Origin: Thermovorax subterraneus
Lineage (GTDB): Bacteria; Bacillota; Thermosediminibacteria; Thermosediminibacterales; Thermosediminibacteraceae
Reading direction: 5' to 3'
Assembly: GCA_021608145.1 (NCBI GenBank)
Contig: JAKIHM010000019.1
Coordinates: 1-50,140 of the forward strand
Length of the DNA: 50,140 bases
The first letter of the stretch is position 1. Every line of letters starts with the position of its first letter. A program made the position numbers and the translations under genes. Under the pieces are notes generated by a model, which ran no database searches, was not told where the DNA came from, and saw only the letters and a list, made by a program, of their open reading frames with translations. Shown one piece after another: positions 34,636 through 41,502 of this stretch.

Positions 34636-35031
34636 ATGAAAATAGTAAAGTCCAGACCGGACCTTTGTACCGGGTGCGGAGCATGTATGATAGCGTGCTC
34701 TAAAGTTCTTTACAAAGTTGAGGACCCGGATAAATCGGCAATCAGGATAAAAGAAAGGCCCGGAGCGGAAAGCGGTTACGATATTTTCGTTTGCAACCAC
34801 TGCGGGAAATGTATATCGATTTGCAGCGTCGAGGCAATTTACAAAGCAAAAAATGGTGCGGTGAGAATCGATGCGGAAAAGTGCGTAGGATGTTACATGT
34901 GCGTGGGATTTTGTCCCGAGCAGGCGATGTTCGTCCATAAAGACATAAACGAGCCCATAAAATGCATGGCCTGCGGTGCCTGCGTGAGGGCCTGTCCCAC
35001 GGGAGCAATTTATTTGGAGGAACAAGATTAA
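34636..35031 (+). CDS. Polyferredoxin with four [4Fe-4S] motifs (AOR electron partner)
   Basis: 131 aa, 16 cluster cysteines in four sets: CTGCGACMIAC, CNHCGKCISIC, CVGCYMCVGFC and CMACGACVRAC. Such proteins pass electrons for AOR-family enzymes. The gene precedes the AOR-family gene by 26 nt, with GGAAGGAGG just before ATG, so the two are probably partners. Cluster number is inferred from spacing. Confidence 0.9.
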   Translation: MKIVKSRPDLCTGCGACMIACSKVLYKVEDPDKSAIRIKERPGAESGYDIFVCNHCGKCISICSVEAIYKAKNGAVRIDAEKCVGCYMCVGFCPEQAMFVHKDINEPIKCMACGACVRACPTGAIYLEEQD

Positions 35032-35057
35032 TATCAAGGGTAAGGGGGTACGGGAAA

Positions 35058-37193
35058 ATGACGGGCAAAATATTGGCTACTTACGAATATACTCCTGCAA
35101 AAGTGGAAAGAGGATATGCTGGAAAGACCTTGTATATCAATTTATCGGATATGACGATTAAGGAAAAGCCGGTCACAGAAAAGATGAAAGAGCTTTTCGT
35201 AGGTGGAAGGGGATTCGGCCTTTGGTATTTATGGAATGCCGTCTCTAGTGACACGAAATGGAATGATCCGGAAAATGAGATAATAATTGCCGGGGGCCCT
35301 ATTTGCGGAATTACCCAGTACCCGGGTTCGGGGAAAGCAGCAGTGGTTACCCTTTCGCCTCTCACCGGATGTCCGATGGATAACAATGTAGGCGGCTATT
35401 TTGCACCGCTTTTGAAATTCTCTGGATGGGACGCTTTGGAGATTCAAGGGAAATCGGACAGGGACGTAATCGTATTCATCGACGGAAACAGAGGGAAAGT
35501 AGTTATAGAAGATGCCTCCGACGAACCTGCCGATACCCACCTTTTAGCGGAAAAATTAACGGAAAAGTATGCGGATTCCGAAGAAGACAAGAGGAACATT
35601 TCCGTTGTTTCATCCGGCAAAGGAGCGGAAAACACTCTGATTGGTATGCTCAACGTATCCTTCTATGACGTCAAAAGAAAGGCCGTCAGGGTAAAACAAG
35701 CCGGAAGAGGCGGGTCCGGAACGGTCTTCAGGGACAAGAAGATAAAGGCCGTCGTTGTGAAGTACAAAGGAGTGACCGGCGATTCAAACAATCCTGCCGA
35801 TAAGAAAAAGATAATCAATGCGGCCTTAAGGCTTCATAAAGAGATTTTTGAGCTCGATAAGCTGCAAAACAGGATGAGGGAAGTGGGGACGGCTAACTTG
35901 GTTGAAGTTATGAATGATTACGATTTGCTACCTGTAATGAACTTCCAGTACGGTTCCCATCCGGATGCTAATAGAATAACATCCAAAGTCTTTAGAGAAA
36001 AATACTTTACTCAAAATGTACCCGACAACTGCTGGTATGGTTGTTCGCTTTCGTGTGCAAAGGCGGTGGACAATTATGAGGTAAAAACAGGTCCTTACAA
36101 AGGGCAAAAGGTGTGCGTAGATGCAGCGGAATACGAGACCATCGCTGCGGTTGCGGCAAATTGCGGGATATTTGATCCGGAATACGTTATAGAGGCAAAC
36201 TTTTACTGCGATACTTACGGGCTTGATACTATTTCCTTCGGGAACATCGTCGGCTTTGCTATGGAATGTTATGAAAGAGGTATAATAAATAAAGAAATTA
36301 CAGGGGGACTTGAGCTCAAATTCGGAAATGCCGATGCGGCATTGGAGCTTTTGCACCAGATGGCAAAAGGCGAGGGATTCGGAAAGATAGCCGGGCAGGG
36401 AGTAAAGAGCCTTCGGGAATACATCCTTGAAAAAACAGGTGCCGATGCAAAATTGCTGCGGGATATAAGCATGGAAATAAAAGGCCTTGAAGTATCCATG
36501 TACGTAAGCAAGGAATCCCTAGCCCAGCAGGGAGGTTATGCCTTCGCCAACAAAGGACCGCAGCACGATGAAGCGTGGCTAATTTTCATGGATATGGTTA
36601 ACAAGCAAATACCCACATTCGAAGATAAAGCGGAAGCCCTCCATTACTTCCCGATTTTCCGCACCTGGTTCAGCCTGCAGGGATTGTGCAAACTTCCGTG
36701 GAACGACATTGTGCCTGCCGACAACGCGATGACCGATGAGCCGCATAAGATTCCGGCCCATGTTCAAAACTACGTAGACCTTTTCAACGGAGTCACGGGC
36801 AAAAACATAACAAAAGAAGAACTTTTGCTGCAGTCTGAGAGGGTATTTAATTTCCAGAGGATTTTTAATCTAAAAATGGGCAAGGGAACTCGGGAATACG
36901 ATATGCCGCCGTTTAGGCTTTTAGGACCTGCGACAAAGGAAGAATACGAATCAAGAGCGGAAAGATACGATAAGCAGTTGAAAGAGTTAGGATACGATAT
37001 TGAAGGCAAGACCACGGAAGAAAAGATGGCTTTGCTCAGGCAATACAGGGAAAGCCAATTCGAAAAGCTAACAGATGCGGTTTACAAGCGCAGAGGTTGG
37101 AACAAAAACGGAGTTCCGACCCTTGAAACCGTGAAAAAACTCGGAATAGATTTCCCCGAGGTGGTGGAATTGATAGCCAAATACCAGGAGTAA
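35058..37193 (+). CDS. aor: Aldehyde:ferredoxin oxidoreductase family tungstoenzyme
   Basis: 711 aa, somewhat longer than a typical AOR (about 600). AOR enzymes oxidise aldehydes to acids, or run in reverse, using a tungsten bis-pterin and one [4Fe-4S] cluster. Seen here: GGRGFGLWYLWN and GGPICGITQYPGSGK near the N-terminus, the cluster motif Cys325-x3-Cys329-x3-Cys333 in CWYGCSLSCAK, and a later LQGLCKLPWND that may give the fourth ligand. ATG 35058 follows a GGGGG run; the frame opens further upstream inside the ferredoxin gene. Amino-acid fermenters use such enzymes on aldehydes from keto acids; the substrate here is not known. Confidence 0.9.
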   Translation: MTGKILATYEYTPAKVERGYAGKTLYINLSDMTIKEKPVTEKMKELFVGGRGFGLWYLWNAVSSDTKWNDPENEIIIAGGPICGITQYPGSGKAAVVTLSPLTGCPMDNNVGGYFAPLLKFSGWDALEIQGKSDRDVIVFIDGNRGKVVIEDASDEPADTHLLAEKLTEKYADSEEDKRNISVVSSGKGAENTLIGMLNVSFYDVKRKAVRVKQAGRGGSGTVFRDKKIKAVVVKYKGVTGDSNNPADKKKIINAALRLHKEIFELDKLQNRMREVGTANLVEVMNDYDLLPVMNFQYGSHPDANRITSKVFREKYFTQNVPDNCWYGCSLSCAKAVDNYEVKTGPYKGQKVCVDAAEYETIAAVAANCGIFDPEYVIEANFYCDTYGLDTISFGNIVGFAMECYERGIINKEITGGLELKFGNADAALELLHQMAKGEGFGKIAGQGVKSLREYILEKTGADAKLLRDISMEIKGLEVSMYVSKESLAQQGGYAFANKGPQHDEAWLIFMDMVNKQIPTFEDKAEALHYFPIFRTWFSLQGLCKLPWNDIVPADNAMTDEPHKIPAHVQNYVDLFNGVTGKNITKEELLLQSERVFNFQRIFNLKMGKGTREYDMPPFRLLGPATKEEYESRAERYDKQLKELGYDIEGKTTEEKMALLRQYRESQFEKLTDAVYKRRGWNKNGVPTLETVKKLGIDFPEVVELIAKYQE

Positions 37194-37227: not shown

Positions 37228-37428
37228 GTGATAAAAGTCAACAACGAAGATATGGATTTTACAGATGGAATGACGGTTGAAGATGTACTGAAAATAAAAA
37301 AGTACTCCCATCCCATGATTACGGTTATAGTCAACGGAAAGGTAATTCCGGTGGATAGTTATTCCACTTATAAAGTAAAAGATGGTGACGTAATTAATGT
37401 AATTCACATGATGAGCGGGGGATGTTAA
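37228..37428 (+). CDS. MoaD/ThiS-like sulfur carrier of the AOR operon
   Basis: 66 aa, beta-grasp (ubiquitin-like) fold. VEDVLKIKKY and VIVNGKVIPVD are typical, and the chain ends MMSGGC. Sulfur carriers normally end in Gly-Gly, whose carboxylate is thiocarboxylated; here an extra Cys follows. It lies 34 nt after the AOR-family gene and probably serves tungstopterin synthesis. GTG start with GGAGGGG upstream. Whether the last residue is trimmed cannot be seen. Confidence 0.82.
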   Translation: MIKVNNEDMDFTDGMTVEDVLKIKKYSHPMITVIVNGKVIPVDSYSTYKVKDGDVINVIHMMSGGC

Positions 37429-37450
37429 ATCCCCTCCTCTTTTAAATTTT
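37418..37450 (+). terminator. Possible terminator/attenuator at the end of the AOR operon
   Basis: GGGGAT (37418-37423) and ATCCCC (37429-37434) form a short stem across the stop codon of the MoaD-like gene, followed by a T-rich stretch (TCCTCTTTTAAATTTTTTT). It may partly separate the small selenoprotein gene from the AOR operon. Confidence 0.4.
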
Positions 37451-37471
37451 TTTCCGGAGGGGAAAATAAAA

Positions 37472-37765
37472 GTGAAAGCTGATTTATCCCCTTGGGCTAA
37501 AAATTACGTGAGGGAACGTGGAAAAGTAATGTATATCGAAAAAAGGCTTGGCGTTCACGGCTGATGAAACGCTTTTTATGCCCCATCAGGTCTGGTGGGG
37601 AAGCCTGAAAACGAGGAAAACTTTGAAGTGTTTACGGTTGACGGCGACGTAAAAGTTTACGTCAAGAAAGAACTTCTCGAGGCGATGGACCCCGGAGAAA
37701 AGGTATTCAAATTTCTGATTCCGGAGTATGGCTGGCATTATCTTGTATTTTTAAATAAAAAATGA
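37472..37765 (+). CDS. Small CC/Se-motif family selenoprotein, two adjacent TGA codons (Sec31-Sec32)
   Basis: 97 codons if TGA 37562-37564 and TGA 37565-37567 are read through as selenocysteine. GTG 37472 has GGAGGGG at 9 nt. The same frame stays open on both sides: before the TGAs it encodes an N-terminus ending RLGVHG, after them FYAPSGLVGKPENEENFEVF then VDGDVKVYVKK, closing at TGA 37763. The pattern (SPWAKNYV start, double motif after Gly, GKP, VYV-KK) fits a small protein family I recall as CC/Se motif (seleno)proteins, in which this site is Cys-Cys or contains Sec. A 7-bp hairpin with loop AGGTCT follows 20 nt after the second TGA, like the fdhF SECIS. The alternative is a pseudogene with two nonsense codons. 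Function unknown. Confidence 0.72.
37562..37600 (+). promoter_or_regulatory. SECIS-like element of the small selenoprotein
   Basis: After TGATGA, CCCCATC (37581-37587) pairs with GGTGGGG (37594-37600), enclosing loop AGGTCT. The loop is the same as that of E. coli fdhF as I recall it (AGGUCU), and its core GGTCT also occurs in the window's own fdhF hairpin at 39874-39878. Confidence 0.72.
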
Positions 37766-37772
37766 ATTGGGA

Positions 37773-37804
37773 AAGCCGGTAATGCCCTGCCGGCTTGTTT
37801 TTTT
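37773..37804 (+). terminator. Rho-independent terminator after the small selenoprotein gene
   Basis: AAGCCGG (37773-37779) and CCGGCTT (37790-37796) with a 10-nt loop, followed by GTTTTTTT. Confidence 0.88.
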
Positions 37805-37834: not shown

Positions 37835-39121
37835 TTGAAAGAAAGCGTAAAAAAACTAAGACGGGAAATCTATAAGCTAGTAGCTGAACATGCACGAAAG
37901 CTAGATAACCTGCAGGACGTATATACGGCGGTTATGGAATCGATTGGGGACAAATTAAGCCGGGAAGAAGCAGAGGCCCGAGTTCGGGCGGCGCTTGGGA
38001 CTTTTGAAAGAGGTGCGATCCCCGAAGTAGTAGATTTTCCGTTTATTTCGATTATAGAAAAGGCTTGCACCGGACACGGCCAGGATTGCGGATGCAAAAT
38101 TGCGTGCGAACCGAAAGCTATAGAGGTAAAAGGCGATAAAAGCCCAGCTATCGACCTGGATAAATGCATATCCTGCGGACTTTGCATAATAGCCTGTCCT
38201 GAAGGTGCCATTGCCGACAAAACGGAGATAGCTCAGACCATCAATTTGATTAAGAAAAATCCAAGGGTCTATGCCGTGCTGGCACCAGCTTTTGCCGGGG
38301 AGTTTGGACCGGAAGTAAGCGAGGAGCAGGTGAAGTCGGGCTTACTCATGCTGGGGTTTTACGATGTCATCGAAGTTGCCCTGGGTGCTGATATGATAAC
38401 GGTGAAGGAAGCCGAGGAGTTCATCCGGCGCATGGATAGGGGAGACGAATTTATGATAACGTCCTGCTGCTGTCCGCCTTTTGTGAGGCTGGCCAAAAGT
38501 TACCGGGGTAAAATCGAAGGGATGGTGTCTGATTCGGTTTCGCCCATGGTTGCCATAGCCCGGTTTATCAAGGCCGAAGATAAAGACGCAAAAGTCGTGT
38601 TTATAGGCCCGTGCATCGCAAAAAAGACCGAGGCAAAATTGCCTGAACTCAAGGATGCGGTGGACTGCGTCCTGACGTTCGAGGAACTTTCTGCGATCTT
38701 TGAGGGCTATAAAATAAACCTGGCGGAAATAAGCATAAGAATGCCTATAACCGATGCCTCGCACGACGGAAGAATATATGCCCACACGGGCGGTGTTACG
38801 TCGGCCATTGTGTCCAGCGTAAAATCTATGAGGCCCGACATTGAAGTGAAGGCCTGCCAAGGTGACGGAATAAAGGAATGCAAAAGAATACTCGATGCTA
38901 TAGAAAAAGGTACTCTTGATGCGAATTTCGTGGAAGGAATGGCCTGCGTCGGCGGGTGCGTAGGAGGTCCAGGAGCATTGATTCCGAAGGAGGAAGGGGC
39001 GAAAGCGGTAGACGCCTTTGCTACAAGAAGCAGCGTCAAGGAAGCTATAAACAACGGCACTGCGAAGATACTTTACGGCAAACACAAAGATAAAGTAAAA
39101 TTAGAATCCCATCGAATGTGA
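37835..39121 (+). CDS. Atypical [FeFe]-hydrogenase-like iron-sulfur protein
   Basis: 428 aa. A helical N-terminus (to about 65) is followed by a Cys-rich piece (CTGHGQDCGCKIAC), a [4Fe-4S] motif (CISCGLCIIAC) and an H-cluster domain. The three H-cluster signatures differ from standard enzymes: L1 is TSCCCPPFV (usual TSCCPxW), L2 is GPCIAKKTE (usual MPCxxKxxE), and L3 is GMACVGGCVGGPG. All four H-cluster cysteines appear present. It resembles putatively sensory or uncharacterised groups (group C/D) rather than bulk hydrogenases, by memory. TTG start with GGGGAG upstream. It has no PAS or other output domain. It sits between two terminators, as its own unit. Confidence 0.8.
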   Translation: MKESVKKLRREIYKLVAEHARKLDNLQDVYTAVMESIGDKLSREEAEARVRAALGTFERGAIPEVVDFPFISIIEKACTGHGQDCGCKIACEPKAIEVKGDKSPAIDLDKCISCGLCIIACPEGAIADKTEIAQTINLIKKNPRVYAVLAPAFAGEFGPEVSEEQVKSGLLMLGFYDVIEVALGADMITVKEAEEFIRRMDRGDEFMITSCCCPPFVRLAKSYRGKIEGMVSDSVSPMVAIARFIKAEDKDAKVVFIGPCIAKKTEAKLPELKDAVDCVLTFEELSAIFEGYKINLAEISIRMPITDASHDGRIYAHTGGVTSAIVSSVKSMRPDIEVKACQGDGIKECKRILDAIEKGTLDANFVEGMACVGGCVGGPGALIPKEEGAKAVDAFATRSSVKEAINNGTAKILYGKHKDKVKLESHRM

Positions 39122-39242: not shown

Positions 39243-39467
39243 TTGCTAGTAATAGATAAGACTGAATGCATTGAATGCGGGACATGTTTCCATCTATGCC
39301 CTTTTGATGCAATTGAAGAAAAACATTATGGAGGGAAAGAGATTTATGAGGTCATAGAAGAAAGCTGTATGGAATGCTTGCTTTGCTTGAAAGCCTGCCC
39401 GCTTAGAGCAATAAATTGGAAGGAAGACGATTTCGAAAGGTGTGATGGCGTTGACAAAGTATGTTAA
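39243..39467 (+). CDS. Two-cluster ferredoxin subunit (HycB-like) of the formate dehydrogenase/hydrogenase set
   Basis: 74 aa. Two [4Fe-4S] motifs are seen: CIECGTCFHLC then CP, and CMECLLCLKAC then CP. TTG 39243 with AAGGAGG at 7 nt is chosen; a GTG at 39210 lies inside the Rex operator. The gene overlaps fdhF by 23 nt. Known hydrogen-dependent CO2 reductases use larger HycB subunits with four clusters; this one is about half the size, suggesting a reduced wire between FdhF and the hydrogenase. The assignment to that role is inferred from context. Confidence 0.8.
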   Translation: MLVIDKTECIECGTCFHLCPFDAIEEKHYGGKEIYEVIEESCMECLLCLKACPLRAINWKEDDFERCDGVDKVC

Positions 39468-41502
39468 AACGATTTGTCCCTACTGCGGGTGTGGTTGTTC
39501 GATAATCCTTCACGTGAAAGATGGAAAGATTGTTCGAACCTCCCCGGCTGTAAAAGATTCAATAAACAAAGGGACGCTTTGTATCAAAGGCATGCTTGCT
39601 CATGAGTTTGTACATTCTCCTGAAAGGTTGAGGACGCCACTTATTAGAGAAAACGGAAGTTTTAGGGAGGCCACTTGGGATGAAGCCCTTAGAATGGTCG
39701 CTGAAAAATTCCATAAGATAAAGGAAAAATACGGCGGATTAACTTTTGGAGTTTTAAGCTCGGCTAGAGCCACATCTGAAGAGAATTACCTTATCTCAAA
39801 ATTCTCAAGAGCCGTTTTGGCTACAAACAACATAGACCATTGTGCTCGGTTGTGACACGCACCAACAGTGGCCGGTCTGGCCCAAACGATGGGTGCTGGA
39901 GCGATGACGAATTCTATAGACGAAATAACAGAAAGCCAGGTTTTATTCGTGATAGGTTCAAATACGACGGAGCAGCATCCTTTGATAGGCTCGCGGATAA
40001 TTGAGGCCATAAAAAAAGGAGCAAAATTAATAGTGGCAGATCCCAGGAGAACATACCTTGCAGAGAGGGCCTATGTCCACCTTTGCCTTTTGCCGGGAAC
40101 CGATGCGGCTTTGATAAATGCCATGATGAACGTGATAATAAATGACGGCCTTATCAATGAAGAATTCATTAAAGAGCGAACAGAGGGTTTCGAAGAGTTA
40201 AGACAAAACATCCTTCAATGGACGCCAGAAAGGGCAGAAAGAATTACGGGAGTAAAAGCCGAAGATATCCGGCGGGCTGCCCGCATTTACGCCGGTGCTG
40301 AGAGGGCAATGATCCTTTACTGTATGGGTATAACGCAGCACAACTGCAGTACCGACAACGTAATTGCTTTGTCGAATTTGGTGTTGCTCACCGGCAATGT
40401 AGGAAAACCCGGTGCCGGTCTTTGCCCGTTGAGAGGCCAGAATAACGTCCAGGGAGCCTGCGACATGGGCGCGCTTCCAGACGTTTTATCCGGTTATCAG
40501 AAAGTAAAAGATCCAGGAGTTCGCGAAAAATTTTCCAGGGCCTGGGGGGTTGAAATCCCAGAAATTCCGGGATTGACCGTGCCGGAAATGTTTGAGGCTG
40601 CAGAAAAAGGCATTATAAAGGCCATGTATATAATAGGTGAAAATCCTGCGGTGAGCGAAGCCCATCTTTCGCATGTAGAAAAAGCCCTGCGAAACCTCGA
40701 GTTTCTTGTGGTTCAAGACATATTCTTTACGGAAACCGCAAGATTTGCCGATGTGGTGCTGCCGGCTTGTTCCTTTGCCGAAAAAGACGGAACTTTCACC
40801 GGAACCGATCGCAGAGTTCAGAGGCTGCGAAAAGCCATTGAGCCTCTATGGAATTCCAAGCCCGACTGGCAGATTATAGCAGAACTTGCCGCCCGAATGG
40901 GTTATCCCATGACTTACACACATCCTTCAGAAATAATGGATGAAATCGCAAGCCTTACTCCTTCCTACGGGGGAATATCTTACGACAGGTTGGAAGGACC
41001 GGGTATTCAGGTCCCATGTCCTCACAAGGACCATCCGGGGACACCTTACCTTCACAAAGGTTCTTTTGCAAGGGGGAAAGGTAAATTCATTCCTGTAAAT
41101 TATACGCCACCCGCCGAAAGGACCGATGAAAAATATCCCCTCGTCCTTACTACAGGACGAGTACTGTATCATTACCACACGGGCACTATGACCCGAAAAA
41201 TAGATTTTCTCAACAAAAAATGTCCGGGGCCTTTTGTTGAAATAAATCCTGCCGATGCGCAAAAGCTGGGAATATCCGATGGCAATGAAGTTTACGTAAA
41301 ATCGAGGAGGGGAAAAATCAAAGTCCCCGCAAGAGTCACTGAGAAAATAAAGCAAGGTGTTGTGTTTGTGCCTTTCCACTTTGCGGAAGCTGCGGCCAAT
41401 TACCTTACAATAGATGCACTGGACCCGGTAGCTAAGACACCGCAGTTAAAATCTTGTGCAGTAAATATTTTGGCTGGGAGTGAAGAAAATGGCAATAGTT
41501 GA
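39445..41502 (+). CDS. fdhF: Formate dehydrogenase, selenocysteine-containing (Sec137)
   Basis: 685 aa when TGA 39853-39855 is read as Sec137, close to Sec140 of E. coli FDH-H. It interconverts formate and CO2. The N-terminal [4Fe-4S] site is CPYCGCGC with a later LCIKG; the Sec sits in DHCARL-U-HAPTVAGLA, exactly as in FdhF enzymes. Mo/W bis-pterin domain blocks follow (GSNTTEQHP, DPRRTYLAE, LPGTDAAL), and a C-terminal pterin-binding domain (VLTTGRVLYHYHTGTMTRK). A SECIS-like hairpin begins right after the TGA. ATG 39445 is chosen; GTG 39442 and TTG 39451 are close. The end overlaps the hydrogenase start by 14 nt. Given W-type genes nearby, W may replace Mo. Confidence 0.94.
39853..39896 (+). 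promoter_or_regulatory. SECIS-like hairpin of fdhF
   Basis: After TGA, lower stem GCACC (39859-39863) pairs GGTGC (39892-39896) and upper stem GGCC (39870-39873) pairs GGCC (39879-39882), with loop GGTCT. The G-U in the loop and the 18-nt spacing from TGA to loop match the bacterial fdhF SECIS pattern. Confidence 0.85.

Follow-up and report, generated by a model that had tools for sequence, protein, structure and literature searches.

Are two adjacent in-frame TGA codons in a small bacterial gene both read as selenocysteine (Sec, U)? The question arises from a frame at positions 37472–37765 (+ strand) of the window, by which we mean the whole 50,140-nucleotide stretch of Thermovorax subterraneus DNA analyzed here. 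The frame comprises 97 codons plus stop, starting with GTG at 37472 and ending with a terminal TGA at 37763–37765; its 97-residue readthrough product would carry Sec31 at the first internal TGA (37562–37564, +) and Sec32 at the second (37565–37567, +). A ribosome binding site, GGAGGGG, was read from the sequence at 37456–37462 (+), with similar sites preceding the other genes of this type, and an intrinsic-terminator-like hairpin with a T tail follows at 37773–37796 (+). The initial annotation had described a 97-codon frame with tandem TGAs, a good ribosome site and a downstream terminator, and frame, coordinates, codons and both flanking signals were verified. A second terminator-like hairpin, at 37417–37435, lies between a ThiS-like gene and this gene, so that the latter may be expressed separately or be subject to attenuation. 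No other TGATGA frame of comparable size occurs in the window. As a random window of like composition would be expected to contain 0.33 frames of such size, the case had to rest on conservation; the double-TGA frame with its hairpin, seen in one sequence, is weak evidence and not significant alone.

When TGA was treated as a residue, the window protein scored 44.7 bits against NF041239, the NCBIfam model of the CC/Se motif family of (seleno)proteins, above the cut-off of 40 bits and in line with the family assignment first proposed. Among ten other proteins with adjacent Sec codons (UU proteins), six pass this cut-off and four score 33.7–35.5 bits. Pfam contained no family for the window protein and PDB sequence profiles yielded nothing for it, Rfam yielded nothing in the window, and the PHROGs match was too weak to be useful. 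When 101 related genomes were searched with NF041239, 39 gave matches, including 12 double-TGA loci in 11 genomes, all with TGAs that align exactly with those of the window. A second genome scan added three UU genomes, Alkaliphilus peptidifermentans DSM 18978 and Anaerosolibacter among them, and six more came from searching 394 genomes of the Alkaliphilus order. Related genomes thus keep the double TGA within a single alignable readthrough frame, conserved at 21 loci in 20 Clostridia-type genomes, and two of these belong to cultured type strains (Thermosediminibacter litoriperuensis DSM 16647 and A. peptidifermentans DSM 18978). In two broad searches (398 + 394 genomes), matches of at least 69 bits all had two TGAs and lower ones all had none or one. 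Identity to the window protein falls to 31–35% inside the UU clade, and past the TGAs substitutions concentrate at third positions (5, 3 and 14 at codon positions 1, 2 and 3 between the window and genome G008).

The two aligned columns bear directly on a competitor of the Sec-Sec reading, namely that just one UGA encodes Sec while the other is decoded by a different tRNA (mis-reading as Trp or Cys) or by-passed, leaving one selenium per protein. Most CC/Se family members do have one Sec, and tandem recoding is costly. Among 86 aligned family members, however, the columns hold UC in 20, UA in 20, UU in 15, CC in 13 and CU in three, with a few others (US and UG types included). The first column is thus Sec in UC and UA members and Cys in CC and CU members, the second Sec in CU members and Cys in UC and CC members, so that each position is independently a Sec/Cys site. 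Homologs with CC, CU or UC at residues 31–32, which had been named beforehand as support for the reading, are therefore on hand, and the UU pair stands where they have their adjacent Cys/Sec pair. A comparison of UU and non-UU profiles aligned the UU pair to the CC pair as well (probability 99.3, E 1.7e-20). On the tree, all UU genes fall into one clade (support 98/90), explained by a single change. Both codons are TGA at 21 of 21 loci, although Cys is one base change away, and no member of the UU clade has Cys at either site or has reverted. Since the clade lacks a Cys-Cys orthologue of its own, the Cys evidence is drawn from sister subfamilies. Conservation of the frame and of both Sec positions is thus a result of direct comparison; that only one of the two codons yields Sec strikes us as very improbable.

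Two observations on individual family members may be recorded separately. At one locus (L034, genome G001) the motif is C-U-U (HCUUN), with Cys immediately preceding the Sec pair. The genome of the window also has a second CC/Se family gene (L070; G000:C39:14874-15146), a separate selenoprotein with a single TGA and Ala at column 2 (GGGUAG type), which is conserved across related genomes.

A bacterial SECIS-type hairpin, common to both TGAs, was located at 37581–37600 (+; CCCCATC AGGTCT GGTGGGG). As initially described, it has a 7-bp stem and an AGGTCT loop beginning 20 nt past the second TGA; the A and T closing that loop also pair, which extends the stem to 8 bp and leaves a GGTC loop (37589–37592) at 24 nt from the first UGA and 21 nt from the second. 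The GGTCT core noted after the Sec codon of fdhF, 2.3 kb downstream, was likewise confirmed: this gene for a selenoprotein formate dehydrogenase alpha (39442–41502, +; TGA at 39853–39855), a Sec gene of known type, served as a local control. By itself the window hairpin has a folding energy of z = −1.62. Across 14 UU sequences, both sides changed in five of its eight pairs, and the covariation score of 0.324 (0.165 for shuffled alignments) was reached by none of 500 shuffles. The result was upheld with 20 sequences, although in two of them (G501 and G567) the 3' arm is shifted by one base and was scored as partly unpaired. At alignment columns 27 and 38, CCA pairs with GTG or ATG and CCG with ACG or GCG, so that the residue encoded there tracks the RNA stem. 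The published bSECIS rules (a loop of 3–9 nt, G in the first two loop positions, 16–37 nt from the UGA, MFE ≤ −7.5; PMC13188914) are met for both UGAs in all 20 distinct UU sequences.

The placement of the hairpin in relatives again speaks against a single selenium. In most UC and UA relatives the loop sits at almost the same position, some 23–24 nt past the column-1 UGA; in the three CU relatives, a hairpin lies 16–21 nt past the column-2 UGA. CC relatives have no consistent hairpin at the corresponding place. A hairpin in this position is hence able to serve either codon singly, and UU genes need it for both. The selenium genes, whose presence the initial annotation had asked to be checked, are all there: in the window's own genome selA (C42:73500), selB (C42:74891) and tRNA-Sec (C42:76872) are grouped together, and selD, which has a TGA of its own, lies on contig C33. 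Each of the 11 UU genomes tested has selA, selB, selC and selD above cut-off.

Taken together, the Cys/Sec columns, the 21 conserved loci and the complete set of selenium genes support the proposal that both TGAs encode Sec, making the product a UU-type member of the CC/Se family. We consider this highly probable as a statement about decoding, not function; it was derived from sequence, without protein-level evidence, and actual insertion of both residues is inferred. With the covarying hairpin added to this evidence, recoding of both adjacent UGAs by one SECIS is the most likely arrangement. SelB with Sec-tRNASec bound on the hairpin would insert Sec at the first UGA, and, by inference, the step would be repeated at the second UGA, three bases further along, while the hairpin is still folded, so that a single element would direct successive decoding. 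Bacterial Sec insertion is usually described with one hairpin per UGA. Tandem UGA decoding with one hairpin should be inefficient, which counts against the Sec-Sec reading.

The hairpin also helps to judge a reading in which translation stops at the first TGA, the locus consisting of two short genes with a TGATG stop-start overlap or of a decayed gene. The ATG inside TGATGA does overlap a stop, and stop-start overlaps are common in bacteria. However, the frame opened by this ATG runs for only 14 codons in the window before a stop and is unconserved, whereas the original frame is conserved past the TGAs, the hairpin covaries, and the family contains CC genes without any stop. We rejected both overlap and pseudogene on frame conservation and covariation, and regard termination at the first TGA as scarcely tenable. 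Regarding genome-wide reassignment of UGA, the other genes of the window terminate at ordinary stops, some of them TGA, and the genome encodes a complete Sec system. A sequencing error was rejected, as the double TGA recurs in 20 genomes, two of them from type strains.

How far Sec-Sec decoding is new depends on what is already known. The CC/Se family (NF041239) was first predicted in Moorella thermoacetica. Among the 119 families listed in a 2026 review of prokaryotic selenoproteins, NF041239 is given one Sec, and none in the review's table has an adjacent Sec pair (PMC13188914). Table 1 of this review gives the NF041239 motif as CxxU, which is at odds with the adjacent Cys/Sec columns seen here. 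UU proteins share with the family homology over approximately 70–85 residues, the Cys/Sec pair at the same columns and a SECIS at nearly the same place; they differ in having Sec at both columns followed by an APSGxxGKPE-type motif, and some fall under the NF041239 cut-off. Adjacent Sec had initially been called very rare. That rarity stands, but it does not amount to uniqueness, as consecutive Sec was first reported in 2020, predicted in the algal PDI_e (GUGUU; PMC7539508), for which no bacterial homologue was reported. PDI_e resembles the UU proteins in its predicted Sec-Sec pair but is a eukaryotic thioredoxin-fold PDI, whereas the UU gene has one in-frame hairpin for both codons. In eukaryotes, SECIS elements lie in the 3' UTR. 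Selenoproteins with a UxxU motif (Prx-like, FmdB-like, NF041115 metal-binding; SelL) also have two close, diselenide-capable Sec residues, but these are three positions apart, not adjacent. The CC/Se family and algal Sec-Sec are thus known; for the bacterial UU form of that family we found no earlier report in the literature searched, which did not cover RefSeq annotation.

What the two residues might do was approached through gene neighborhoods. The initial annotation had placed the gene between a tungsten AOR operon and a hydrogenase-like gene, and this holds: upstream lie a multi-4Fe-4S ferredoxin-like subunit (YdhY/PRK09898-like; 34636–35031, +) of the AOR cluster, an aldehyde:ferredoxin oxidoreductase (AOR) family enzyme, tungsten type by family (35016–37193, +; start codon provisional), and a ThiS/MoaD-like sulfur carrier (37228–37428, +), and the next gene downstream encodes a group B1-like [FeFe] hydrogenase-like protein below the curated cut-off (37835–39121, +). 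Counting the window's, a UU gene follows an AOR family enzyme at nine loci in eight genomes, usually with the ferredoxin before AOR and often with a ThiS-like carrier in between; a tenth AOR-adjacent locus (L146) belongs to another order. At several loci the [FeFe]-like protein comes next after the UU gene. Genome G005 has, in addition, a divergent UU paralogue (30% identity) 20 nt past a different AOR, which looks like a second AOR association. Across 28 genomes, the window's AOR subtype and UU occurred together in 10, UU alone in one, AOR alone in three and neither in 14 (Fisher p 2.7e-4, uncorrected for kinship). The link is not strict: UU is missing from three AOR genomes, and the same AOR cluster occurs without UU in G009, which makes UU an accessory.

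The second context is arsenic. In five other genomes the UU gene lies in an ars cluster (L076, L078, L079, L142 and L144) with ArsR and ArsA and mostly ArsD, and at L076 also with ACR3 and ArsM. In two more genomes the UU gene has an ArsC-family neighbor, and in one more an ArsP-type permease and a thioredoxin-like gene adjoin. These neighbors are observed directly, yet the two contexts name no single substrate. In G022, the UU gene adjoins a C_GCAxxG_C_C redox protein (L033:5208-5729), from another family with known selenoprotein members.

A structure model built from nine UU sequences (pLDDT 89.1, pTM 0.79) was compared with known folds. The best Foldseek match was IscA, at a modest E of 0.11, and IscA, SufA and similar Fe-S biosynthesis proteins headed the VIA-align results (best IscA Z 5.4, again modest), the nine best matches being mostly annotated A-type carriers. 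An IscA/SufA-like fold presenting a vicinal diselenol on a loop is thus likely, not proven, and rests on a predicted model. The Sec pair would presumably occupy the place of the one loop Cys of IscA, although the two were not aligned. The window protein did not match PF01521 (A-type Fe-S carrier; Pfam gathering score 26.3); sister proteins matched it weakly and below cut-off (best 23.1 bits, 8.8e-5), and one UU protein had a weak match to the IscA_HesB_Se model. UU proteins thus resemble A-type carriers (IscA, SufA) and HesB-like selenoproteins in predicted fold and through this weak sister-protein similarity, but fall below the family cut-offs and lack the C-terminal CxC motif, which is absent from the alignments; they are not filed as A-type carriers. 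As none of eight genomes with CC/Se proteins has a canonical PF01521 protein over cut-off, the CC/Se family perhaps fills part of the A-type Fe-S carrier role.

Links to ArsD/ArsA and to AOR clusters favor handling of metal(loid)s or electrons: a vicinal diselenol would bind or relay soft metal(loid)s or electrons, an inferred and unproven function. The pair of selenolates would provide either a soft-ligand site or a diselenide; in support of arsenic handling and of AOR-type tungsten enzymes, the diselenol would bind a metal(loid) or cluster and pass it on, or cycle via the diselenide. One form of this idea is a carrier or chaperone of metal(loid)s or Fe-S/W, A-type-carrier-like, with the two selenolates as soft ligands. 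It draws on the IscA/SufA-like model, the weak PF01521 matches of sister proteins, the membership in five ars clusters, and the published statement that certain small selenoproteins may use Sec as a metal ligand (PMC13188914); it is weakened by the missing CxC, by the lack of any shown substrate, and by an AOR context equally suggestive of an electron role. We regard such a carrier as a serious candidate that falls just short of an even chance. The other form, in which the pair would act as a redox relay of the dithiol/diselenide type and serve AOR-ferredoxin or [FeFe]-like proteins, is possible but on the doubtful side. The 10 AOR-adjacent loci, the [FeFe]-like neighbors, the G005 paralogue and the thioredoxin-like or ArsC-like neighbors elsewhere fit it, whereas ArsD, ArsA, ArsR, ACR3 and ArsM at other UU loci point to metalloid binding and the fold is closer to metal or cluster carriers than to thioredoxins. 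The redox role and diselenide capability initially suggested thus remain inference, and fold and neighbors suit a carrier of metal(loid)s or clusters equally well or better; the evidence does not decide between carrier and redox relay. A tentative proposal, which we would not yet call probable, combines these elements: one in-frame SECIS would recode two adjacent UGAs, and the resulting diselenol, displayed by a protein of A-type-carrier-like fold, would carry soft metal(loid)s or electrons for arsenic operons and tungsten AOR clusters alike.

A conserved double UGA with one hairpin makes SelB reloading and the successive decoding of two codons directly testable, and natural controls exist in the UC, CU and CC relatives. 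For a small protein, a vicinal diselenol would be an unusual ligand or redox site, and the ars and AOR clusters suggest concrete substrates for it.
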